A stretch of DNA of 64,000 nt from positions 124,001 through 188,000 of the forward strand of contig NZ_JALJCJ010000006.1 of the NCBI RefSeq assembly GCF_022899935.1, read 5' to 3'. Source of the stretch: Shinella curvata. Lineage in GTDB: Bacteria; Pseudomonadota; Alphaproteobacteria; Rhizobiales; Rhizobiaceae. Below are positions 22,826-42,651 of the stretch, one piece after another (position 1 is the stretch's first letter; every line of letters starts with the position of its first letter). A program made the position numbers and the translations under genes. Below the pieces are notes generated by a model. It saw only the letters and a list, made by a program, of their open reading frames with translations. It had not been told where the DNA came from and ran no database searches.

Positions 22826-24043
22826 ATGTCGGCAAATCCCCCCGTCAGTCCATCCGTCAGCCGCCCCGTACCGCGTGGGCTTTCCCGCACCGGACCGGTG
22901 CTCTTCTCCTATGGGTTCCGGCCGTTCTTTCTCGGCGGCGCGCTCTGGGCCATCGCAGCCATGGGCCTGTGGATCGCCGCGATAACAGGCCATATCACGA
23001 TTGCCGAAACCTACGGCGCGCCCAACTGGCACGCCCATGAAATGCTGTTCGGCTTCGCCTCCGCCGCGCTCGCCGGCTTCCTGCTGACGGCCGTGCCGAA
23101 CTGGACGGGGCGTCTGCCGGTATCCGGCTGGCCGCTGGCGGGCCTCTTCGCGCTCTGGTGCGCCGGGCGCATCGCGCTTCTCGCTTCGGATGCGATCGGC
23201 GTTGCCGTTGCCGCCACCATCGATGCGCTCTTCCTGCCCGTTCTGCTCGCCATCTGCACGCGAGAGGTGGTGGCCGGGCGCAAGTGGAAGGACCTGAAGG
23301 TTCTGGCCGGGCTCGCCGCCCTGTCGCTCGCCAACGCGCTCTATCACGTGGCGGCCATTCACGGCGGCCATCACCATATGGCGATCCGGCTGGCCGTCGC
23401 CGCCTATGTCGTGCTGGTCATGATCGTCGGCGGGCGCATCATTCCAAGCTTTACGCGCAACTGGCTCAACAAGTTCGGGCGAACGGATTTTCCGGTGCCC
23501 TACAACAACTACGACATGGTCGCGATCCTCGCAGGCGCCGGCGCATTCGGCCTCTGGGCCGTATTGCCCGAGCACCCCGCAACCGCTGCAGCGGCCGCAG
23601 TCGCCGCCGTCCTCCATTGCATCCGCCTGCATCGCTGGCGCGGCTGGACGGTGGCGCGGGACCGAATCCTCGTCATCCTGCACATCGTCTATGCCTTCAT
23701 CCCGCTCGGCCTCGTGGCCCTCAGCCTCAGTGCGCTTGGATATCTCGAAGAACGCTCGGTACTGCATCTGCTCTCGGTCGGCGCCATCGCCTGCATGATG
23801 CTGGCGGTCATGACGCGCGCAAGCCTCGGCCATACCGGCCGTGCCTTGGTCGCCTCCAAGATCACGGTGGCCGCCTACACCGCCCTCATCCTCTGTGCGC
23901 TGGTGCGTCCGCTTGCGGAAATCCTGCCGGACCTCAGCCCCACCCTCTATGCCGCCTCCGGCCTGCTCTGGATCACCGCCTTCGGCCTCTATTGCCTGGA
24001 GTATGCACCGATGCTCGCGCGAAAACGCCGGGCGCCGCTCTGA
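22826..24043 (+). CDS. nnrS: NnrS family heme-copper membrane protein
   Basis: A 405-residue protein with about 12 predicted membrane helices and the NnrS marks LFSYGFRPFFLGG, NWHAHEMLFGF and VGGRIIPSFTRNW. NnrS is a heme- and copper-containing membrane protein that protects against nitrosative stress during denitrification. The ATG at 22826 follows AAAGGAAAG. It is divergent from nirK and has its own Fnr/NnrR-type box. A strong hairpin terminator follows. Confidence 0.93.
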   Translation: MSANPPVSPSVSRPVPRGLSRTGPVLFSYGFRPFFLGGALWAIAAMGLWIAAITGHITIAETYGAPNWHAHEMLFGFASAALAGFLLTAVPNWTGRLPVSGWPLAGLFALWCAGRIALLASDAIGVAVAATIDALFLPVLLAICTREVVAGRKWKDLKVLAGLAALSLANALYHVAAIHGGHHHMAIRLAVAAYVVLVMIVGGRIIPSFTRNWLNKFGRTDFPVPYNNYDMVAILAGAGAFGLWAVLPEHPATAAAAAVAAVLHCIRLHRWRGWTVARDRILVILHIVYAFIPLGLVALSLSALGYLEERSVLHLLSVGAIACMMLAVMTRASLGHTGRALVASKITVAAYTALILCALVRPLAEILPDLSPTLYAASGLLWITAFGLYCLEYAPMLARKRRAPL

Positions 24044-24050
24044 AACACGA

Positions 24051-24080
24051 AAGGCCCGGAGGTTTTCTCCGGGCCTTCTT
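24051..24080. terminator. Bidirectional hairpin terminator after nnrS and the DUF59 gene
   Basis: AAGGCCCGGAG / CTCCGGGCCTT, an 11-bp perfect stem with a short T-rich loop, followed by CTTT on the plus strand and preceded by A-rich sequence for the minus strand. It sits exactly between two converging genes. Confidence 0.85.
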
Positions 24081-24389
24081 TCATGCGACATCCAGCATCA
24101 TCTGAGGCGTCCACGGCGGCTCGTAGGTCAGCCGCACCTCGGCATATTCGACGCCCGGCACATACCAGACACAGGCCTGAACTGCCTCCTTCAGGAAATC
24201 CGTCGCCGGGCAGAAGCGTGTCGTCGTGGTCATGGTGACATAAACGACACCGCCCTCCTCCACCACGATATCGTAGACCAGGCCGAGATCGACGATGTTC
24301 TTACCGATCTCGGGGTCGATGATCATGCGCAGCGCCGTGCGGATCTCCTCCGTCAGCGTGGCCTTGTCCATCTCGTTCATCGCCGTCAA
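24081..24389 (-). CDS. DUF59/MIP18-family protein (iron-sulfur assembly factor-like)
   Basis: A 102-residue protein with the DUF59 pattern: DPEIGKNIVDLGLVYDI, then VYVTMTTTTRFCPATDFL containing the family Cys, and the C-terminal VRLTYEPPWTPQMM. Relatives (PaaD, SufT, MIP18) help deliver or repair Fe-S clusters. It is the last gene of a four-gene operon and starts in an ATGA overlap with the gene before it. In this setting it might repair clusters damaged by NO, but that is inference. Confidence 0.82.
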   Translation of the reverse strand: MTAMNEMDKATLTEEIRTALRMIIDPEIGKNIVDLGLVYDIVVEEGGVVYVTMTTTTRFCPATDFLKEAVQACVWYVPGVEYAEVRLTYEPPWTPQMMLDVA

Positions 24390-24904
24390 GCCTCCCCGAT
24401 CCGCACAAGGATGCGGTAAGCCGAGCCCGCCTCATCGAAATTACCGGCCCATTGATGGCCGCGCTTGGTCAGCTCCGGAAAGAGGAACAGCGGTTCGCGC
24501 GCCAGCACGGCGAAGAGCACCTCGCCCGGCTCCAGCGCCTCGGCGGCGGCGAGAATGCGCACCATCGGCTCCGGCGGGTCGAGATCGGTGAGGTCGAGAT
24601 GTTCTGACGGATCCGGCCAGGTTTCGGGGCGGTCGGCATCGACGGAGGTCTCGACGGGTGCAGTCTCCTTCCGCGGCGTGAACAACACCTCCCAGTCACC
24701 ACCGTCGATCTCGCGCGCTTCATGATCGAAGCCGCGCCCTTCCATTACACGAAACAGCGGTTGCGGGCGAAACGTCGCAAGCAGCGTCAACCCCTGTCCG
24801 GGCCGCAGATCCTGCACGGCTTGCATGATCGCCTGGAACGGTTCGCCGCCGCTGCGCAGGATCGGCCGCACGTCGAGCACCTTCGGTGAAATCTCGGACA
24901 TCAT
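24386..24904 (-). CDS. Double DUF2249 protein
   Basis: A 172-residue protein made of two DUF2249 (TusA-like fold) units. The first is KVLDVRPILRSGGEPFQAIMQ...GLTLLATFRPQPLFRVMEGRGF, the second LDLTDLDPPEPMVRILAAAEAL...VLFAVLAREPLFLFPEL. They are joined by an acidic linker. The biochemical role of DUF2249 is unknown; it is frequent near denitrification and hemerythrin genes. ATGA overlaps at both ends show tight coupling with the membrane-protein and DUF59 genes. Confidence 0.8.
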   Translation of the reverse strand: MMSEISPKVLDVRPILRSGGEPFQAIMQAVQDLRPGQGLTLLATFRPQPLFRVMEGRGFDHEAREIDGGDWEVLFTPRKETAPVETSVDADRPETWPDPSEHLDLTDLDPPEPMVRILAAAEALEPGEVLFAVLAREPLFLFPELTKRGHQWAGNFDEAGSAYRILVRIGEA

Positions 24905-26259
24905 TTATCTCCTTGGAAAGCGGATAGAGGCAGAAAGAGGTGCGGCCGCACCATGCCGGCAGGCGCACGTAGCGCGGCCGGCACGATGGAAAGGCGGCGC
25001 GCCCGGATGAATTCGCGGATCAGGCAGAGCGTCACGAAAAGCTGCCCTGCGACGGCCATCCGGAAAAGACCGTTTGTGCCGGCAACAAGGGAGAGCGTCG
25101 CGACGACGACGGCGCCGTAGTAGAGCCGGAACAGGATATCCGCATGGCGTTCATTGACGAGATCCTGCACCCGCGGCACGGGTGCGCGGCCCAGGACGGG
25201 GCCATAGGCCTCCAGCCAGGTGAGAAAGGCAACGATCTTGTAAAGCTGTGCAAGGCCGAGCCCCGTGAGCCAGCCGAAGACGAAAAGATAGACGACCGCT
25301 GCCACGATATCGCCAGTCCTGAGGGCGGGGACGTTGAGAAAGAGGATAGACAGGGCAAACAGGCCAAGCGCCGCGAAACTCGCGCGAATGTTCAGCTCCG
25401 CCTGCTTGCGTTTGCGCCCACGATAGATGTTCAGGACATCGGCGCCGTAAAAAAACACAGCCAGCAGCGTGAACAGCAGCGCGGCAGCGAAAAGTAGCTC
25501 AGCACCAAAAAATCCGGACAGTACGAAGATCGCCGCCGCCGCAACAAGCCCGACCGCCAGGCTGGCGCCCCACAAGGCGGCGCGGCTGGTCGAACGCTCG
25601 ACCTCCGGCGCCAGAAGGAACATCGAAAACAGCCGATAGCTGACACCGATCGCCGTCGCACTCAGCCAGCCGCCGAGGCCGAGGGCGGCATGCAGCGCGA
25701 CGCCATCGGCGACGAGCCGGTCGAGCAATGGACCTTCCGCAAGACCCGATAAAGCGACCGTGAAAGCAGAACCGATGAGCGTCGCGCCAACAAGCGCGGC
25801 TAAGCCGGTGGCGACGAAACGGGCGGGTAACGGCAGAGGCCGTGCAGAATAAAGCGTGACGACGAGGATGCCGGCAAACAGGCCGAAACCCGCCAGAAGC
25901 ATCACGCCGCCGACGGGCAGTAGAACAAACGGTGGGTCCAGTGCCCCGGACAGGGCAACGAACCCACCCAAAAGCAAGCCTAACCCGCCAAGCAGCAGCA
26001 AAAGGGCCGGCACGGCGAAACGCCCGCCGATGACAGGCCGGGCGATGAGCACCGGCACGAATTGCAGCAGCGCCCCGGCCATCAGCAGGCTCAGCCAGCC
26101 GATGGCGACGAGATGAACGACGACAAGCGTCTCCGGCGCGCCGCGATCGGCGAAGGGATAGCCGTAACCGGCGACCATCAAACCTTGCGCCGCAACGAGC
26201 ATGAGGCAGGCGGCGGCGAAGTAGGACATGGTCCAGCGGGAGAGGGTTGCGCCCGGCAT
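24901..26259 (-). CDS. Polytopic membrane protein of unknown function (heme-copper-oxidase-like pattern)
   Basis: A 452-residue protein with about 12 hydrophobic helices. Two helices show the His-x6-Gly-Trp-Leu arrangement, VVHLVAIGWLSLLMAGALLQ and a later HAALGLGGWLSATAIGVSYR, which recalls NnrS and heme-copper oxidase subunit I relatives and suggests heme binding. It has no NorB-like metal site that I can trace with confidence. It lies between two DUF2249 genes and is very probably inner-membrane. Function unknown; a role in NO handling or electron transfer is inferred only from location. Confidence 0.75.
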   Translation of the reverse strand: MPGATLSRWTMSYFAAACLMLVAAQGLMVAGYGYPFADRGAPETLVVVHLVAIGWLSLLMAGALLQFVPVLIARPVIGGRFAVPALLLLLGGLGLLLGGFVALSGALDPPFVLLPVGGVMLLAGFGLFAGILVVTLYSARPLPLPARFVATGLAALVGATLIGSAFTVALSGLAEGPLLDRLVADGVALHAALGLGGWLSATAIGVSYRLFSMFLLAPEVERSTSRAALWGASLAVGLVAAAAIFVLSGFFGAELLFAAALLFTLLAVFFYGADVLNIYRGRKRKQAELNIRASFAALGLFALSILFLNVPALRTGDIVAAVVYLFVFGWLTGLGLAQLYKIVAFLTWLEAYGPVLGRAPVPRVQDLVNERHADILFRLYYGAVVVATLSLVAGTNGLFRMAVAGQLFVTLCLIREFIRARRLSIVPAALRAPAGMVRPHLFLPLSAFQGDK

Positions 26260-26284
26260 GTCGGTTTCCTTCGCCGCGTCCGGT

Positions 26285-26566
26285 TCAGTGCTCGGAACCG
26301 CAGCAGCAATCGCAGCTGCCGCCGTCTTCCAGCCGGTCGATCTCGACGCGCCAGACTTCCGGACCCTGCTCGAGATAATCCCAGCCGAACTGGCCGGGGA
26401 AATTGGTCTCGAGCTGATAGTGCAGCGGCCGCGGATCGTGATCGCTGGTGATCAGCATGGATTTGCCAGGCATCAGGGCGCCGAGCATGCCGAAAATGCG
26501 CGGATGGCGTTCGCGCGGCGGAATGGTGCGCACATCGATCAGGGGCTTGTCCAGGGTCTCAGACAT
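26285..26566 (-). CDS. DUF2249 protein with Cys-rich tail
   Basis: A 93-residue single DUF2249 domain (LIDVRTIPPRERHPRIFGML, SMLITSDHDPRPLHYQLE, GPEVWRVEIDRL) that ends in GGSCDCCCGSEH. The four clustered Cys and the last His look like a metal-binding tail. The ATG at 26566 is chosen because the DUF2249 domain begins right after it. It is the first gene of the four-gene operon and is preceded by a TTG-N8-CAA box. Confidence 0.8.
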   Translation of the reverse strand: MSETLDKPLIDVRTIPPRERHPRIFGMLGALMPGKSMLITSDHDPRPLHYQLETNFPGQFGWDYLEQGPEVWRVEIDRLEDGGSCDCCCGSEH

Positions 26567-26668: not shown

Positions 26669-26682
26669 TTGACCCTGCGCAA
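26669..26682 (-). promoter_or_regulatory. Fnr/NnrR-type box for the DUF2249 operon
   Basis: TTTGA-N6-GCAAA, core TTG-N8-CAA, centred about 110 bases upstream of the DUF2249 start. A second box 49 bases away faces hemN. Confidence 0.65.
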
Positions 26683-26717: not shown

Positions 26718-26731
26718 TTGGCTTTTCGCAA
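26718..26731 (+). promoter_or_regulatory. Fnr/NnrR-type box for hemN
   Basis: CTTGG-N6-GCAAA, core TTG-N8-CAA, centred 67 bases upstream of the hemN ATG, the same spacing as for nnrS. Confidence 0.7.
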
Positions 26732-35491: not shown

Positions 35492-36469
35492 CTATCGCCA
35501 GCGTTTGTCGTAAGCGCCAGAGGTCGTGCGCTGCCCCTCGCTCATCACCCGCAGCCGGGAAACCAGCTTGGCCCGTTCTGCCGGGCCGGCGTCGAGTGCC
35601 CTCTTCAGGGACGACACGACCTCCGCGACATAGGCCTTGCCACGTTGCCGCCCTTCGATCTTCAACGCCGAGACGCCGGCCGCCCTGAGAGCGTCGATCT
35701 CGTCGATCACATCGAGCGAAACCGGATCCTCGAAAGCGTATCCCTCCGTGCCGCCGACGTCGAAGCGTCCCTTGCACAATGTGGGATAGCCCGAAGCCTC
35801 GCCGGGACCGAACCGGTTGATCGTATAGGCGCCAAGTTCGGAGACCAGCGTCCCGCCCTCCTCCCGGTAGCGAACATGGCTCGCCGGCGAGCAGACACCG
35901 GACATGTTGGGTGACTTGCCCGTCGCATAGGAGGAAAGCGAGCAGCGCCCCTCCGCCATCACGCAGAGGCCGCCGAAGGCGAAGACTTCGACCTCGCAAT
36001 CGATCTGCCGTGTCAGCCGGGCGATATCCTGCACCGTCAGCACGCGCGGCAGCACCACGCGCTTCACCCCGAAGGCCTCGACGAGAAAACGGATCGCATC
36101 CGGGTTCGAAGCCGACGCCTGGACGGAGACGTGCAGCCGCTGCTCCGGATATCGCTCCGCCACGTAGGCCATCAGCCCGAAATCGGCGAGGATGAGCGCA
36201 TCCGCCCCCATCTCCACCGCGTCGTCGGCAGCGCGGTACCAGAGCGCTTCGTCGCCCGCCCGCATGAAGGTGTTGAGTGCGATGAAGGTCTGCACGTTCC
36301 GGCCGTGGGCGAGTGCTATGGACTGGCGCAGTTCGTCGCGGCTGAAGTTGAGACCGGGAAAGTTGCGGGCATTGGTCTCGTCGCGGAAGCCGCAATAGAC
36401 GGCATCCGCGCCGGCATCCAGCGCTTCGCGGAAGGCTGCAGGCGTACCGGCGGGGCAGATCAGTTCCAT
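35492..36469 (-). CDS. ubiU: UbiU, U32-family protein for O2-independent ubiquinone synthesis
   Basis: A 325-residue U32 protein starting MELICPAGTP. Its four cluster cysteines fall at 169, 176, 193 and 232, with the spacing known from E. coli UbiU. It works with UbiV. The start overlaps the end of ubiT by 10 bases, indicating one operon ubiTUV. Confidence 0.92.
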   Translation of the reverse strand: MELICPAGTPAAFREALDAGADAVYCGFRDETNARNFPGLNFSRDELRQSIALAHGRNVQTFIALNTFMRAGDEALWYRAADDAVEMGADALILADFGLMAYVAERYPEQRLHVSVQASASNPDAIRFLVEAFGVKRVVLPRVLTVQDIARLTRQIDCEVEVFAFGGLCVMAEGRCSLSSYATGKSPNMSGVCSPASHVRYREEGGTLVSELGAYTINRFGPGEASGYPTLCKGRFDVGGTEGYAFEDPVSLDVIDEIDALRAAGVSALKIEGRQRGKAYVAEVVSSLKRALDAGPAERAKLVSRLRVMSEGQRTTSGAYDKRWR

Positions 36470-36966
36470 GTCGCCTGCCTTTCTGCGAGCATGTGGGTGC
36501 GGATATGACGCGCCGCGCCGGTCACCAGCGGCGAGAACGGCCCGGCCAGCGCACCGAGTTCGCGTGGCAGATCGATCGCGCTGTCATCCAGCGCGTTGCG
36601 TAGCGCCAGCATCGCCTCCATGTCGCCGATGACGGAAAGATCGCGAGAAAAGAACAGCGCATCGGCATCGCAGCGCCCTTCCAGCAGGCCGAGAAGAAGC
36701 GCGAGCGGCCCCTCGATACGCGCATCAGCCGGTGGAGGTTCGCCGCGCGAGACGGAAAGCGTCTGCGCCGCCGGCACCACGCGAAAATGCAGCGACAGAT
36801 CGGATGGTGAAAAGCAGTAGCATGTCTGCCGGTAGTCGCCGAGCCTCTCGAAGAGACCGGGGTGGGCCTTCAGTACACCGGAAAATATCCCGCGCGCCGC
36901 ACGCTCGACAAGCCAGAGCGGTAAGAATTCGACGGGTTTGGCAAGGAGCGGGGGGAGCTTGGGCAT
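36460..36966 (-). CDS. ubiT: UbiT, SCP2-domain lipid-binding accessory protein
   Basis: A 168-residue SCP2-like protein (LHFRVVPAAQTLSVSRG, ALFFSRDLSVIGDMEAMLALRNALDDSAID), matching E. coli YhbT/UbiT, which carries hydrophobic ubiquinone precursors under anaerobic conditions. It is first in the ubiTUV operon and has a Fnr/NnrR-type box 67 bases upstream, the preferred spacing in this island. Confidence 0.87.
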   Translation of the reverse strand: MPKLPPLLAKPVEFLPLWLVERAARGIFSGVLKAHPGLFERLGDYRQTCYCFSPSDLSLHFRVVPAAQTLSVSRGEPPPADARIEGPLALLLGLLEGRCDADALFFSRDLSVIGDMEAMLALRNALDDSAIDLPRELGALAGPFSPLVTGAARHIRTHMLAERQATWN

Positions 36967-37026
36967 GCGGGCTCGCTTTGGCGGGACTGGATGTGCAAAG
37001 CCTAGGGAGCGTCGGCTCGCGGGAAT

Positions 37027-37040
37027 TTGCGCCAGCACAA
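37027..37040 (-). promoter_or_regulatory. Fnr/NnrR-type box between ubiT and ubiD
   Basis: TTTGC-N6-ACAAA, core TTG-N8-CAA, centred 67 bases from the ubiT start and 41 bases from the ubiD start. The spacing favours control of ubiTUV; effect on ubiD is possible. Confidence 0.72.
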
Positions 37041-37074
37041 AGACCGGGACGTTTTTCCCCGGCAGAGGTTCGGC

Positions 37075-38586
37075 ATGAAAGCCGATGTCCGCATTCCACG
37101 CCGCTACGACAGCCTGCAGGATTTCGTTGCCCTGCTCGAAGACCGGGCGCGGTTGAAGCGTATTCGCGAGCCCGTCTCGCTGGTGCACGACGTTACCGAA
37201 ATCCATCGCCGCGTGCTGATGGAGGAGGGACCGGCCCTGCTTTTCGAGCGGCCCGTCGATGGCGCCGGCAACGTCCAGCCGATACCACTGCTTGCCAATC
37301 TCTTCGGCACCCGCGAGCGGATCGAATGGGGTTTCGGTCTCGAAGCCGGTACGCTGCCGCGTCTTGCCGCCTTTCTTGCGGATCTGCGTGAGCCCAAGCC
37401 GCCGCGTTCGGTGCGCGATGCCTGGCAGAAGCTGCCGCATTTGAAGGCGGCGCTTTCGATGAATCCGCGCACCGTCTTGCGTCCACCCTGCCAGCAAACC
37501 ATCTGGCAAGGCGAGGCCATCGATCTCGACCGGCTGCCGATCCAGACATGCTGGCCCGGCGAACCCGCCCCGCTCGTCAGTTGGCCGCTTGTCATCACGC
37601 AGGCGCCCGATGATGCATCCGATATCAATGTCGGCGTGTACCGCATGCAAAAGCTCGGTAAGGATAGGCTGATCCTGCGCTGGCTCGCCCATCGCGGCGG
37701 CGCGCGCCATCATCGGCTCTGGCAGGCGCTTGGGCGAAACATGCCGGTCGCCGTCGTCATCGGCGCGGACCCGGCGACCATCCTCTCCGCGGTGATGCCG
37801 CTGCCGGACGGTATGAGCGAGCTCGCCTTTGCCGGCGTCCTCAGCGGCCGGCGACAGCAGACAGCGCCGGGTGTAACCGTACCCATCCCCATCCCCGCCA
37901 GCGCGGAGATCGTGTTGGAAGGCATCGTTTCCGCACACGAAACCGCCGAGGAAGGTCCCTACGGCGATCATACCGGCTACTACAATTCCGTCGAAACCTT
38001 CCCGGTCCTGACGCTATCGGCGATCACCATGCGCAAAAACCCGCTCTATCTCTCCACCTATACCGGCCGGCCGCCGGACGAGCCGTCCCGTCTCGGCGAG
38101 GCGATGAACGAACTCTTCGTGCCTTTGGTGCGCCGTCAGTTTCCCGAAATCCGGGGCCTCTGGCTGCCGCCCGAAGCCTGCTCCTACCGCGCCATGGTCG
38201 TCTCCATCGACAAACGCTATCCGGGTCAGGCGCGGCGAGTGATGATGGGCCTCTGGTCGATGCTGCCGCAGTTCAGCTACACCAAGTTGATCATCGCCGT
38301 GGATGACGACATCAATGTCAGGAGCTGGGGGGATGTCATCTGGGCGCTTTCCACCCGGTTCGACGCCAGCCGCGACCTTATGCTCGTCGACAACACGCCG
38401 ATCGACTATCTCGATTTCGCCTCACCAAAATCCGGCCTCGGCGGCAAACTCGGTCTCGACGCCACCACGAAAATCGGCGCCGAAACCGACCGGGAATGGG
38501 GCCGTGCTCTCACCATGACGCCGGACGTGACGGCGCGGGTCGACGCACTCTGGAACCGGCTTGGCCTCGGGGAGACGACAACATGA
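37075..38586 (+). CDS. ubiD: UbiD-family prenylated-FMN decarboxylase
   Basis: A 503-residue UbiD-like protein with INVGVYRMQ, the catalytic-region segment EGPYGDHTGYYN, and the C-terminal FDASRDLMLVDNTPIDYLDFASP. UbiD decarboxylates an octa/decaprenyl-hydroxybenzoate in ubiquinone synthesis with prenylated FMN. The context beside ubiTUV supports this role, although the family also acts on other aromatic acids. ATG at 37075 follows AGAGG; the gene overlaps ubiX in an ATGA junction. Confidence 0.87.
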   Translation: MKADVRIPRRYDSLQDFVALLEDRARLKRIREPVSLVHDVTEIHRRVLMEEGPALLFERPVDGAGNVQPIPLLANLFGTRERIEWGFGLEAGTLPRLAAFLADLREPKPPRSVRDAWQKLPHLKAALSMNPRTVLRPPCQQTIWQGEAIDLDRLPIQTCWPGEPAPLVSWPLVITQAPDDASDINVGVYRMQKLGKDRLILRWLAHRGGARHHRLWQALGRNMPVAVVIGADPATILSAVMPLPDGMSELAFAGVLSGRRQQTAPGVTVPIPIPASAEIVLEGIVSAHETAEEGPYGDHTGYYNSVETFPVLTLSAITMRKNPLYLSTYTGRPPDEPSRLGEAMNELFVPLVRRQFPEIRGLWLPPEACSYRAMVVSIDKRYPGQARRVMMGLWSMLPQFSYTKLIIAVDDDINVRSWGDVIWALSTRFDASRDLMLVDNTPIDYLDFASPKSGLGGKLGLDATTKIGAETDREWGRALTMTPDVTARVDALWNRLGLGETTT

Positions 38587-39176
38587 CCATAGAGCGCATC
38601 ATCGTCGGCATTTCCGGCGCCTCGGGTGCTGCACTCGGCGTGCGTATCATCGAACGGCTCGCAGCGCTTCCCGACATAGAGATCCATCTCGTCGTCTCCG
38701 ACCCGGCACGGCGCACGCTCGCGCTGGAATGCGGGATCGATACGATCGAGAGCCTGACACCCCTTGTCCATCACCATCACCCGATCGGCGACATCGGCGC
38801 CTCCATCGCCAGCGGCTCCTTCCCCGTGCGCGGCATGATCGTGGCACCCTGCTCGATGCAGACCCTGTCGGCTATCACCACCAGCCGGGCCGATACCCTG
38901 CTCACCCGCGCGGCCGACGTGCAATTGAAGGAACGCCGCCGTCTCGTGCTGCTGGCACGGGAGACCCCGCTGCATCTGGGTCATCTGCGGGCGATGGTCG
39001 CGGCAAGCGAGATGGGCGCCATCATCATGCCACCCGTCCCGGCTTTCTATCATTGCCCCGGCTCCGTTGCCGACATCGTCGACCACCTTGCCGCCCGTGC
39101 GATTGATCTCCTTGGAATTCCGATCGACCCTCTGGCGCGCGCCTGGACCGGATCTGACGCGGCGAATAGCCGATAG
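38583..39176 (+). CDS. ubiX: UbiX-family flavin prenyltransferase
   Basis: A 197-residue flavoprotein with the N-terminal IIVGISGASGAALGVRII, the APCSMQTLSAI segment and MPPVPAFYH near the C-terminus, all standard for UbiX. It makes the prenylated FMN cofactor for UbiD. It is translationally coupled to ubiD. Confidence 0.92.
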   Translation: MTIERIIVGISGASGAALGVRIIERLAALPDIEIHLVVSDPARRTLALECGIDTIESLTPLVHHHHPIGDIGASIASGSFPVRGMIVAPCSMQTLSAITTSRADTLLTRAADVQLKERRRLVLLARETPLHLGHLRAMVAASEMGAIIMPPVPAFYHCPGSVADIVDHLAARAIDLLGIPIDPLARAWTGSDAANSR

Positions 39177-39245: not shown

Positions 39246-39881
39246 CTACCAGCGTAGCCAGCGGTGACCAGCGGCCGCGCCTGCAGCCGTTACGATAGAG
39301 ATCGCGAGTGTGTACCAGGTCGCAAGGAACAGCGGGCTGTCATCGGGGCAGTGCCAGGCATAGATGGCAGCGGCCATAGCGCCGGCGGCAAGTCCCGCAG
39401 CAGCACCGGCCGCCATCGGATTTGCAGGAGCGCCTTTTTTCAGCGCCCAGAACAGGCCCACCAAGGGCACCAGCGACAGGACCGGAACGAAAAACAGGCA
39501 GAACAGGGCATTGCGGCCGAGGAGATTGGCCCGCCAGGTATCGACCGGCAGCACGACAAGCTCCGCGATAACGGCAGAGACGACCATCAGCACCGGTACA
39601 GCGAGCAGGCACACCGGGACACGCAGCTCTTCGCCCGGTCGGCCGACGCGCATGGCGAGACGCATCGCAAGGATGGCGAGGAGGATCGTCACGACGATCT
39701 TGAAGACCACCCGGGCAGTCTCGAACACCGTTGCCAAATTGTGCCGCAGGCCGACGGTGAAGACGAGCAGGAGAGCGGAAAAGACGAAGCCGGCGGCGAG
39801 TGCGATGACGATCGCGCGGCCATAGCGCATGCCGACCGGGGCATCTTGCGTCATCAGAGTGATCAGGTCATCCGTCTTCAT
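39246..39881 (-). CDS. NrsF-like (DUF1109) membrane anti-sigma factor
   Basis: A 211-residue protein with six predicted helices and a short cytoplasmic N-terminus (MKTDDLITLMTQDAP), the layout of NrsF/DUF1109 proteins. In Caulobacter NrsF holds the ECF sigma factor SigF inactive at the membrane until metal or redox stress. It starts 1 base after the sigma-factor gene ends. Two Cys (FCLFF, WHCPDD) may take part in sensing. Confidence 0.85.
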   Translation of the reverse strand: MKTDDLITLMTQDAPVGMRYGRAIVIALAAGFVFSALLLVFTVGLRHNLATVFETARVVFKIVVTILLAILAMRLAMRVGRPGEELRVPVCLLAVPVLMVVSAVIAELVVLPVDTWRANLLGRNALFCLFFVPVLSLVPLVGLFWALKKGAPANPMAAGAAAGLAAGAMAAAIYAWHCPDDSPLFLATWYTLAISIVTAAGAAAGHRWLRW

Positions 39882-39882
39882 G

Positions 39883-40425
39883 TCATTTGCTCCGATAAAG
39901 CGCGGCCAGGGATTTCAGCGCCCGGTGAAGGGATACGCGCACGGCAACCTCCGTCATTTTCAGCCGTGCCGCCGTTTCCCGGATCCCCGCCCCCTCAATC
40001 GAGATGGAGCGCACGATGTCACGCTGAGGATCCTTCAGCCGTGCCAGCACCGTCTCGGTGTCGAGCCGATCGGCGGCCTCGTGCGTTTCGCTTTCCGCCT
40101 CCAGAAACGCCGAGACGTCATCGATCGGCACATTCAGGTGCCGCCCACGCCGGCGCAGGCTGTCGATCAGCTTGTTGCGCACGATCGTCGTCAGCCAGGG
40201 GCCGAGCGGACGGGTGGGATCCCAGGTGCCGCGTTTCAGATGGATGGCAAGCAGGACCTCCTGCACGACATCCTCCGCCTCGCTCGGCGGCGCGCCAAAC
40301 TGATCACAGCGCCGCCGCGCCATGCTGCGCAAATGCGGGGTCACTGCGAGAAGGAAACGGTTGTAGGCCTGCGCATCGCCCTTCATGGCGAGGCGCAGCC
40401 AGGCGGCCCATTCCTCTTCGCGCAT
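39883..40425 (-). CDS. ECF-family RNA polymerase sigma factor (SigF-like)
   Basis: A 180-residue group-4 sigma factor with region 2 (AEDVVQEVLLAIHLKRGTWD, PWLTTIVRNKLIDSLRRRGR) and region 4 (IEGAGIRETAARLKMTEVAVRVSLHRALKSL). An ATG at 40464 would lie upstream of the deduced transcription start, because a GTAAC-N17-CGTA promoter ends at 40450; ATG at 40425 is therefore preferred. It forms a pair with the NrsF-like gene and should drive itself and the divergent bufferin genes. Confidence 0.88.
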   Translation of the reverse strand: MREEEWAAWLRLAMKGDAQAYNRFLLAVTPHLRSMARRRCDQFGAPPSEAEDVVQEVLLAIHLKRGTWDPTRPLGPWLTTIVRNKLIDSLRRRGRHLNVPIDDVSAFLEAESETHEAADRLDTETVLARLKDPQRDIVRSISIEGAGIRETAARLKMTEVAVRVSLHRALKSLAALYRSK

Positions 40426-40449
40426 CGACTGTTTCACCACTGACTGCTC

Positions 40450-40475
40450 TACGTCCGGCAACACGACTTTGTTAC
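40450..40475 (-). promoter_or_regulatory. ECF-sigma promoter for the sigma/anti-sigma genes
   Basis: On the minus strand GTAAC (40475-40471), 17 bases, then CGTA (40453-40450). The same elements and spacing precede the divergent DUF2282 gene. Confidence 0.72.
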
Positions 40476-40587
40476 CACGTCCGCAAGAAGAAATTCTTAG
40501 TGCACATAACCATTTGAAGCGATTGTGATTTTTTGTCGAACACCGACATGCCGGAGCAGTCGCTCAAAAAAATCGACACCCTGTCCT

Positions 40588-40613
40588 GTAACATCGGGCA
40601 GGCGCCCTCCGTA
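40588..40613 (+). promoter_or_regulatory. ECF-sigma promoter for the bufferin operon
   Basis: GTAAC (40588-40592), 17 bases, CGTA (40610-40613). It would start a transcript near 40620, about 40 bases before the precursor ATG. Confidence 0.75.
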
Positions 40614-40659
40614 GCCGTCGATGCACAGCTAAACACGGTTGCACCAACGGAGACGAAAC

Positions 40660-40941
40660 ATGAAGACCACGATCGCCACCCTCGCCCTTGCCGGTTCGCT
40701 TGCGTCCGCTCTTGCCGCCATCGCCACGCCTGCCGCCGCGGAGGATGCCAAGGAAAAGTGCTACGGCATCGCGATGAAGGGGCAGAACGACTGCGCCGCC
40801 GGTCCGGGCACGACCTGCGCCGGTACGTCGAAGATCGATTACCAGCAGAACGCCTTCAAGCTGGTACCCAAGGGTACCTGCGTCTCGATGAAGACCCCCA
40901 CCGGTCACGGCATGCTGGAACAGGGCCCCGCTCCGGCCTGA
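40660..40941 (+). CDS. bufA1: DUF2282 bufferin-type copper-binding precursor peptide
   Basis: A 93-residue exported protein with a signal peptide (to about AAAED, residue 30) and four Cys at 34, 45, 53 and 74 in the DUF2282 pattern [17 protein letters not shown]...[11 protein letters not shown]...KGTC. In described bufferins the DUF692 enzyme turns cysteines of the precursor into thiooxazoles that bind copper. The order DUF2282 - DUF692 - DUF2063 - DoxX matches that system. GGAGA precedes the ATG. Confidence 0.85.
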
Positions 40942-40963
40942 GGCCCGCCCGGCGCCCCTCACG

Positions 40964-40985
40964 GACGACGCCCACGGGCGTCGTC
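40964..40985 (+). terminator. Hairpin between the bufferin precursor and DUF692 genes
   Basis: A 9-bp perfect stem GACGACGCC / GGCGTCGTC with a 4-base loop and no U-run. It probably allows more precursor than modifying enzyme to be made from one transcript. Confidence 0.55.
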
Positions 40986-41008
40986 GCTTCGCTCCAGAAA
41001 GGCATCTC

Positions 41009-41863
41009 ATGATCCCCTCCGCTCTTCCACGCCGCGCGGGCGTCGGTTTCAAGCCCGAGCATTTCGCCGACATTCTTGCCGAACCGCAGACGATCGGCTT
41101 CTTCGAGGTCCATGCCGAGAACTACATGGGCGCGGGTGGTCCGCCACATGCCCAGCTTGGCAAGTTGCGGGAAGACTATGCGCTTTCCATTCACGGCGTC
41201 GGCCTTTCGATTGGTTCGATGCAGCCGCTCGACCGCGACCACCTCGCCCGGTTGAAGACGCTGTGCGACCGTTACCGGCCTGAAAGCTTTTCCGAACACC
41301 TGGCGTGGTCGAGCCATGACGGCGTGTTTCTCAACGATCTCCTGCCGCTGCCCTATACCCGGGAGACGCTCGACCGCGTGATCGAGCATGTCGACCAGGT
41401 GCAGGCGACGCTCGGCCGGCAGATGCTGCTCGAAAACCCCGCCACCTATCTGCTGTTTGCCGAAAGCACGATCGAGGAAACCGACTTCCTTGCGGAGATC
41501 GCGCGGCGCACCGGCTGCGGCCTGCTGCTCGACGTCAACAATGTCTTCGTCGCGGCAACGAACCACAATCTCGATCCTCGCGACTATATCGCCCGCTTCC
41601 CGCTGGAAGCCGTGCGTGAAATTCACCTGGGTGGCCATTCGGAAACCATCGACGACCACGGCGCCTGCCTTCTGATCGACAGCCACGACACCCCCGTCAA
41701 AGATCCCGTCTGGGCGCTTTACGAAACCGTGATCGGCCGTCTCGGGCCGGTTGCAAGCCTGGTCGAGTGGGACAATGATCTGCCCGCCTGGCCGATGCTG
41801 CGCGCCGAAGCCGAAGCCGCGCAGCACATTCTCGATCGCGCCGCGCAACAGAGGGCAGCATGA
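41009..41863 (+). CDS. bufB: DUF692 multinuclear iron oxidase (MNIO) modifying the bufferin precursor
   Basis: A 284-residue TIM-barrel enzyme of the DUF692/MNIO family. Expected metal ligands are visible: Glu and His in [11 protein letters not shown], His in LSIHGVG, His in [11 protein letters not shown], Glu in LENPATYL, Asp/Asn in LLLDVNNVF, His in REIHLGGHS, Asp in DSHDTPVKD and Glu in VEWDND. The family oxidises cysteines in small precursors using a mixed-valent iron centre. Coupled to the next gene by an ATGA overlap. Confidence 0.9.
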
Positions 41864-42651
41864 CGATGTCAGCCGCCACCCAAAACGCCTTCGCGATAGG
41901 CCTTTTCTCCACCACCCCACCACCGTCCAGCCTTACGGCATGGAACGGCACGGCCCTGGAGCGGCGCTACTCAGTCTACCGAAACAATATCATCGCCAGC
42001 CTGACCGAGGCCCTGGTCTCCCGTTTCCCTGCAGCCCTCAACATTGTCGGGCCGGATTTTTTCCGCGCCATGGCACAGGCCTTCATTCGGCTCCATCCAC
42101 CTCGCTCGCCGCTGCTTTTGGCCTATGGCGATGATTTCCCGGATTTCGTCGCCGGTTTCGAGCCAGCGCGCGAGCTTGCCTACCTGCCGGATGTGATGCG
42201 GCTGGAAGTCGCCAGGGGGCGTGCCTATCACGCGGAAGAAGCGGTACCGCTCGAAGCGCGGACCCTAGCGGATGTTGAACCGCACCGGCTTCGGACGCTC
42301 ATCTTCAAGCCGCACCCTTCCCTTTCGGTCATCTCGTCCCCTTACCCCGTTGCAACCATCTGGGCCATGAACAGCGGTGGCCGGCCGCTCGCGGCATTGG
42401 ACGACTGGCTGGGCGAGGATATCCTTGTCGTGCGTCCGCGCATGACCGTCGAGATGTCCGGCCTGCCGCCGGGCGGCGCAGCCTTCTTCCGGCACCTCGC
42501 TGCCGGCGTAAATCTTGCCGGCGCAGCAGACGCCGTGCAGCACGCAGAAGCGCGTTTCGATCTTTCAGCCAACCTTGCGATCCTGCTCCGCTCAGGAGCA
42601 TTCACCGCCTTCAGCCAGGGGACCAGCGATGAAAACCGACACGATGCCTGA
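41860..42651 (+). CDS. bufC: DUF2063 partner protein of the MNIO enzyme
   Basis: A 263-residue protein with the DUF2063 N-terminal helical domain ([48 protein letters not shown]) and a second half seen in MNIO partners. These proteins recruit the precursor peptide to the MNIO enzyme. The start overlaps the bufB stop; the end overlaps the DoxX gene by 23 bases. Confidence 0.87.

Follow-up and report, generated by a model that had tools for sequence, protein, structure and literature searches.

The DUF2249 domain, which we take to be the same family as COG4309, has been seen repeatedly near denitrification genes. Excerpts of two papers place DUF2249 proteins in the nitrate respiration of Thermus (DrpA/DrpB) and in denitrifying haloarchaea (Haloferax), in loci devoted to nitrogen-oxide respiration (PMC6282519, PMC11218638), and because COG4309 genes are linked to both NnrR and NsrR in the excerpted account of Rodionov et al. 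2005 (PMC1274295), that dual link of DUF2249 had already been seen. NnrS of Vibrio cholerae reportedly does not remove nitric oxide (NO) and shields the iron pool from dinitrosyl iron complexes (PMC9246220), SufT-type DUF59 proteins aid the maturation of iron-sulfur (Fe-S) proteins (PMC8593673), and the hemerythrin-like RIC/YtfE proteins (as dnrN) belong to NO regulons (PMC1274295). Here we consider an operon in a 64,000-nucleotide stretch of Shinella curvata DNA (contig NZ_JALJCJ010000006.1, positions 124,001 to 188,000; the whole of this stretch is called the window), in which a single-domain DUF2249 protein (gene 1), a membrane protein (gene 2), a tandem DUF2249 protein (gene 3) and a DUF59 protein (gene 4) are brought together. 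For DrpA/DrpB, the Haloferax proteins and the COG4309 genes, the same excerpts mention neither a membrane nor a DUF59 partner (PMC6282519, PMC11218638, PMC1274295), and the hemerythrin domain of RIC/YtfE was not found in the operon proteins. No published account of the four-gene unit, of its membrane protein or of the Cys-rich tail that ends gene 1 turned up in a literature search conducted largely outside subscription journals. Our preferred reading, with a probability of roughly 45%, is that the operon is an NO-linked module for the protection or maintenance of iron centers. Its two halves differ in strength: the link to NO, to which the upstream sites, the genomic context and a predicted fold common with NnrS all point, is very probable, and the iron-center role is a prediction to which we would give a little less than even odds.

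Scanning genomes with only the membrane protein as query gave 138 relatives, the nearest being Shinella species with a membrane protein 89% identical. Sinorhizobium meliloti 1021 has its homologue on pSymA. The counts given below for loci L001 to L080 lean toward close kin, since these are the best 80 of the 138. The initial annotation had called for a survey of the neighborhood, and all four genes were found together, with order and strand unchanged, in 73 of the 80; the tandem DUF2249 gene follows the membrane gene in all 80, and 78 retain the DUF59 gene. As a unit, the four are conserved beyond what chance would give. Neighbor families were built from homology-supported open reading frames (ORFs). 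Denitrification or nitrate-reduction genes (nir, nor, nos, nar or nap) are present in 63 of the 80 loci, and 77 have at least one gene when nnrS, nnrR and Rrf2 are counted as well.

The regions upstream of the block appear to carry two unrelated kinds of NO-linked signal, and according to the literature the corresponding regulators, NnrR and NsrR, respond to NO or its kin. The first is the FNR/NnrR-type box (TTGN8CAA) that the initial annotation had assigned to the operon. It recurs within 180 nucleotides upstream in 56 of the 79 relatives for which the upstream sequence is long enough, and within 250 nucleotides in 60 of 80 upstream regions (79 relatives plus the window), where single-base shuffles lead one to expect 3.0; of 320 control stretches taken from within the membrane gene, 13 have it. 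The second is an NsrR-like palindrome near ATRYATTGACAATRYAT (up to 4 mismatches), which takes the place of the box in 17 of the 79 loci; 16 of these have at most 2 mismatches, none being expected from simulated sequence, and box and palindrome never occur together (0/79). The palindrome fits the NsrR consensus gATGyAT-N5-ATrCATc as given in the excerpt of Rodionov et al. (PMC1274295). The palindrome consensus was derived from the same loci, and the less circular test is a pattern built after the published one. With no more than 2 mismatches allowed, this pattern occurs in 16 of the 23 loci that lack a box, compared with 16 of 300 shuffles. Moreover, a divergent Rrf2-family gene lies within 1.5 kb of the block in 10 of 80 loci, all box-less; the copy tested (L063) matches PF02082, with NsrR as its best match, under that model's cut-off. 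In 2005, by the same excerpt, NsrR orthologues were missing from the alpha-proteobacteria but for one (PMC1274295). Besides the deep split, there seems to have been at least one exchange of control, because L058, L060 and L068, with a box and an nnrR-like gene upstream, nest among NsrR-type loci on the tree. These three are the clean case; the box label requires 4 changes on the tree, 3 of them being forced by supported branches, and one of those three is L031, where upstream DNA is missing. As an observation in its own right, a small DUF1858 protein is encoded near the block, mostly adjoining an nnrR gene (L135:7075-7377 and 8 other loci, doubles possible); a DUF1858 gene of Bradyrhizobium diazoefficiens is strongly NnrR-dependent in the excerpted report (PMC6710368).

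Family profiles give no purchase on the membrane protein. It matches no Pfam or NCBIfam family at E 0.01, including PF00115 of the oxidases and PF05940 of NnrS, and a profile of its alignment A1 found nothing among PDB sequences at E 10. The AlphaFold2 model built on 57 sequences is a confident one (predicted local distance difference test, pLDDT, 93.1; predicted template modeling score, pTM, 0.92), with 12 long helices, the number already read from the sequence by the initial annotation. Each of the 38 Foldseek matches at E ≤0.001 comes from the structure of a heme-copper oxidase, of an NO reductase or of a supercomplex containing one, including cbb3 CcoN (3mk7, E 7e-7) and NorB (4xyd, E 3e-6); sequence identity is 10-16% among the matches listed. 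The protein is confidently predicted to fold, with its 12 helices, like subunit I of the heme-copper oxidases. In common with subunit I (cbb3 CcoN, NorB; PF00115), it has a conserved His in helix 2 (H49) and in helix 6 (H190), both of which are His in 80 of 80 loci; unlike subunit I, it has neither the PF00115 match nor the helix-7 His pair nor the helix-10 HxH, and conserved His are absent altogether from helices 7 and 10. Since no other position reaches 40% His among 106 close rows, the "His-containing" protein of the initial annotation comes down to these two residues. The NorB of the window has its His pair at 232-233 and its HxH at 321-323, and His 232, 233, 321 and 323 have ligand roles. 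With the helix-7 and helix-10 ligands missing, the membrane protein should be neither an oxidase nor an NO reductase, and we reject both identities. Residues invariant in A1, among them R282, R284, K341, W348 and E350, lie on what the basic loops indicate to be the cytoplasmic side. A further 19 distant homologues all keep H49 and H190, all have His in place of E350, and add His at position 86 (17 of them) and position 380 (16). Distant homologues with these extra conserved His (L140-L159; positions 86, 350 and 380 in the numbering of gene 2) often adjoin a gene of a family in which the member tested is a fusion of DUF2249 and hemerythrin, a point of likeness to RIC/YtfE.

The protein with which gene 2 invites comparison is NnrS (PF05940), encoded next door. 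The model of that NnrS (pLDDT 89.3, 33 rows) has cbb3 CcoN as its top fold match (E 2.6e-4), and hence both are predicted to have the 12-helix heme-copper oxidase fold; NO-linked regulation, known for NnrS from the literature, is a second point in common with the operon. The conserved His differ, those of NnrS being H71, H288, H316 and H338 in alignment A2. A stretch H-x4-G-x7-G-x6-P occurs in 57/57 membrane-protein rows, 32/33 close NnrS rows and 25/44 broader NnrS rows, against 0/45 NorB rows and 99/771 background ORFs, the family's own members among the latter, and may be taken as only a hint of kinship with NnrS. We did not accept membership in NnrS on the strength of this hint, the profile comparison (given below) being weak. 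In any case, gene 2 would be a second oxidase-fold protein beside NnrS, apparently one that has lost catalysis and kept a role tied to NO.

Of the soluble partners, the DUF59 protein bears out its annotation as Fe-S assembly-like, with a PF01883 match; in that domain and in a conserved Cys, here invariant, it resembles SufT and PaaD. The likeness to TusA holds in part. Gene 3 matches PF01206 (33.6 bits against a cut-off of 28.6) but gene 1 does not, and TusA-like sulfur transfer is unsupported, because gene 3 has zero cysteines and so misses the catalytic one, and those of gene 1 are confined to its tail. Gene 1 has conserved H21 and H43. In a survey of 74 gene 1 copies (73 loci plus the window), 51 have at least 3 Cys at the C-terminal end, in the form C-[DE]-C-C-C-G-x(0-4)-H (45/51) or C-x-C-x-C-G-x(0-3)-H (4/51), the final His being missing in 2/51. 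The locus has nirK or norB in 50 of the 51 cases; the exception, L009, is a nos/nnrS locus. On the membrane-protein tree all 51 group in a single clade (100/99 support), together with two Brucella-named loci, in which the variant is shorter (HECTCGNH), and one locus that lacks gene 1; the other gene 1 copies have no such tail (0/21). Since the tail copies form one clade, the tail, the type of regulator and the context do not count as independent traits. The only DUF2249 domains found in the 6.07-Mb, 19-contig genome are the three of this operon.

From these parts a working scheme can be drawn. NO would induce the operon. The membrane protein would bind heme or metal through H49 and H190 and, at the membrane, take up either NO or electrons. 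The DUF2249 proteins could dock on the conserved cytoplasmic face of the membrane protein (Q66, R282, R284, K341, W348, E350), and targets damaged by NO might receive iron or Fe-S clusters from the DUF59 protein; where gene 1 ends in a Cys-rich tail, in the nir/nor clade, that tail would hold the carried metal. The module would work, in short, like NnrS plus Fe-S carriers. The iron role draws support from the retention of the DUF59 gene and from the DUF2249-hemerythrin gene that adjoins the distant homologues, a neighbor in keeping with iron chemistry. Fe-S or metal-site repair or delivery against NO had been suggested from the outset; the NO link is now strongly supported and iron is the best reading of the rest, and it is the TusA type of sulfur delivery that has to be dropped. 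A bolder version is conceivable. Oxidases leave the pore between helices 2 and 6 empty, and this protein, catalytically reduced, could hold a heme or metal there as part of a new NO-defense machine, coupled to DUF2249 and DUF59 carriers in the cytoplasm for the rebuilding of Fe-S clusters damaged by NO, and placed under NnrR-type and NsrR-type control, with the Cys-rich tail as a metal-transfer arm in the nir/nor clade; taken whole, we think this unlikely. The scheme does give DUF2249 a testable function. If the module is what we propose, denitrifiers own a membrane-linked maintenance system for iron centers that is separate from NO reductase, with a bearing on how they survive self-made NO and on the leakage of NO and nitrous oxide.

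Several observations weigh against an NO-linked iron-center module. The binding of heme, metal or Fe-S clusters, the induction by NO and the contacts among the four proteins are all inferred. The DUF59 protein falls far under the equivalog cut-offs (TIGR02945, 86.7 against 143.4 bits; SufT TIGR03406, 73.1 against 202.6), and no suf gene was seen among the identified neighbors, which sets it apart from SufT and PaaD. The similarity between the membrane-protein and NnrS profiles is weak: one comparison gave P 0.45, and another gave P 0.0044 for the local alignment and P 8.9e-5 for the global one, the latter out of register. Neither control signal is present in 6 of 79 loci, and three of the 80 loci (L045, L054, L070) have none of the nitrogen-oxide or NO-linked genes sought, fixN being present at L054 and L070. 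Lastly, in a sample of 247 genomes of the same family (NorB cut-off E 1e-30, NirK E 1e-50), the block is missing from 17 of 43 NorB-positive and 53 of 94 NirK-positive genomes and is therefore dispensable for denitrification in general.

The same sample has the membrane protein in 46 genomes, 26 of them with NorB and 20 without, leaving 17 with NorB alone and 184 with neither. For NirK the corresponding numbers are 41 with both, 5 with the membrane protein alone, 53 with NirK alone and 148 with neither. The association is strong (Fisher p 4.6e-12 for NorB and 2.2e-15 for NirK, in a test that ignores relatedness). Because the NorB search used a cNor query (E up to 1e-30), NO reductases of other kinds can escape the count; one genome, G833, was scored NorB-positive on a 34% match. 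Absence from related denitrifiers, which the initial annotation had named as counting against its proposal, was not what we found, 26 of the 43 NorB-positive genomes having the block, although its spread is patchy. Farther afield, a clear homologue was found in 4 of 289 genomes sampled from the class (the window's own included), with a weak match in 2 more, and matches at E 0.01 occur in 55 of 398 genomes sampled from the phylum, many of them distant.

These numbers bear on the strongest competitor, namely that the operon encodes an assembly or maturation factor that inserts metal or heme into the denitrification metalloenzymes: NO reductase (NOR), NirK, Nos or Nar. That nor/nir islands host the block in most close relatives, that NorB and NirK accompany it as often as they do (26/46 and 41/46 carriers), and that COG4309 was suggested to matter for NO reductase in the excerpt of Rodionov et al. 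(PMC1274295) all speak for such a factor. Against it, the block is neither limited to NorB genomes nor in every one of them; with 20 of 46 carriers lacking a detected NorB and 17 of 43 NorB genomes lacking the block, a purely NOR-dedicated role is unlikely, and we reject a NOR-specific assembly factor as the sole role. Moreover, the neighbors differ from locus to locus (nor, nos, nar or fixN), so that no one client enzyme suits them all: the block is not tied to a single denitrification enzyme. Assembly in the wider sense thus strikes us as unlikely, if still the first alternative to keep in mind.

Sensing is harder to maintain. The membrane protein might sense NO, or the module nitrate, with the DUF2249 proteins passing on the signal as proposed for Thermus DrpA; the excerpts that propose DUF2249 proteins as nitrate sensors (PMC6282519, PMC11218638) and the conserved H21 and H43 of gene 1 fit this picture. 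Yet Pfam and NCBIfam searches of the four proteins found no DNA-binding, kinase or cyclase output domain, separate regulators already control the block, and the DUF59 partner is hard to account for, so that we judge a sensory role improbable. We think no better of the chances that gene 2 is a membrane NO buffer or an electron-transfer heme protein at the quinone pool, with no Fe-S role, which the soluble proteins merely assemble. An oxidase fold without catalytic ligands, next door to an NnrS of the same predicted fold, is what such a protein might look like, but its heme binding is a prediction, and the supposed helpers are kept with great constancy, the DUF59 and tandem DUF2249 genes both more so than gene 1. 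Finally, the idea that these are passenger genes with some other task, merely travelling with denitrification islands, accords with the patchy spread (46/247 family genomes) and the 3 of 80 loci without NO-linked neighbors, and is very improbable against two kinds of NO-linked upstream sites and nitrogen-oxide neighbors that recur, varied as they are.

Returning to the window, the operon lies on the minus strand where the initial annotation put it, between nnrS (+) and hemN (+), in a denitrification island with napA, napC, a Crp/Fnr regulator gene, nirV, nirK, nnrS, hemN, norD, norQ, norB, norC and norE, all named by protein family and gene order (coordinates in Table 1). The regulator gene is probably nnrR. 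Two ATGA overlaps had been claimed. That of genes 2 and 3 (24901-24904) is genuine, and an overlap of 4 nucleotides at this junction is the commonest spacing in relatives (25 loci), though not universal; the DUF59 ORF overlaps gene 3 (TTGA) only with TTG as start codon, and 5 nucleotides past the gene 3 stop there is an ATG that has a good ribosome-binding site, which most likely makes this junction a 5-nucleotide gap. Genes 1 and 2 are 25 nucleotides apart. The second TTGN8CAA box likely belongs to hemN. The strong hairpin beyond gene 4 (-23.8 kcal/mol, z -4.6) is a probable terminator shared by nnrS and the operon; a simple terminator scan did not list it.

Table 1. Features of the operon and its flanks in window coordinates.
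Feature	Position	Strand	Basis or remark
Gene 1, single-domain DUF2249 protein, 93 amino acids, conserved H21 and H43, C-terminal CDCCCGSEH tail	26285-26566	-	DUF2249 E 3.5e-29
Gene 2, 452-amino-acid 12-helix membrane protein, predicted heme-copper oxidase subunit I fold, invariant H49 and H190	24901-26259	-	predicted model; conservation in relatives
Gene 3, tandem DUF2249 protein, 172 amino acids, no cysteine; ATGA overlap with gene 2	24386-24904	-	two DUF2249 stretches, E 2e-36
Gene 4, DUF59 (FeS_assembly_P) protein, invariant Cys	24081-24389	-	DUF59/FeS_assembly_P E 1.1e-19; likelier start ATG at 24380
NnrR/FNR-type box TTGACCCTGCGCAA, proximal to gene 1	26669-26682		103 nucleotides upstream of gene 1; position kept in relatives
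Second TTGN8CAA box	26718-26731		61 nucleotides before likely hemN start (26792)
Hairpin between convergent nnrS and DUF59 stops	24049-24080		folding of region 24040-24085

Some neighbors of the block deserve mention for their own sake. A family of proteins of about 100 amino acids is encoded behind the DUF59 gene at L078:12155-12460 and 13 other loci (doubles possible), mostly of the NsrR type; the one member searched has no Pfam or NCBIfam match, and the family is a possible fifth component of the block. A second neighbor family, at L120:8004-8540 and 9 other loci (doubles possible), likewise has no Pfam or NCBIfam match and is presumably a group III truncated hemoglobin. In the window itself, 39264-42651 encodes a DUF692-type enzyme for the modification of ribosomally synthesized and post-translationally modified peptides (RiPPs; MbnB/TglH/ChrH, E 2e-107), a DUF2063 protein and two unmatched ORFs, followed by a response regulator, which we take to be a copper-linked RiPP cluster of the bufferin kind. 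Near the nor genes, 36460-39176 holds genes for an SCP2-domain protein, UbiD and a UbiX-like flavoprotein, possibly for oxygen-independent ubiquinone synthesis inside the denitrification island.

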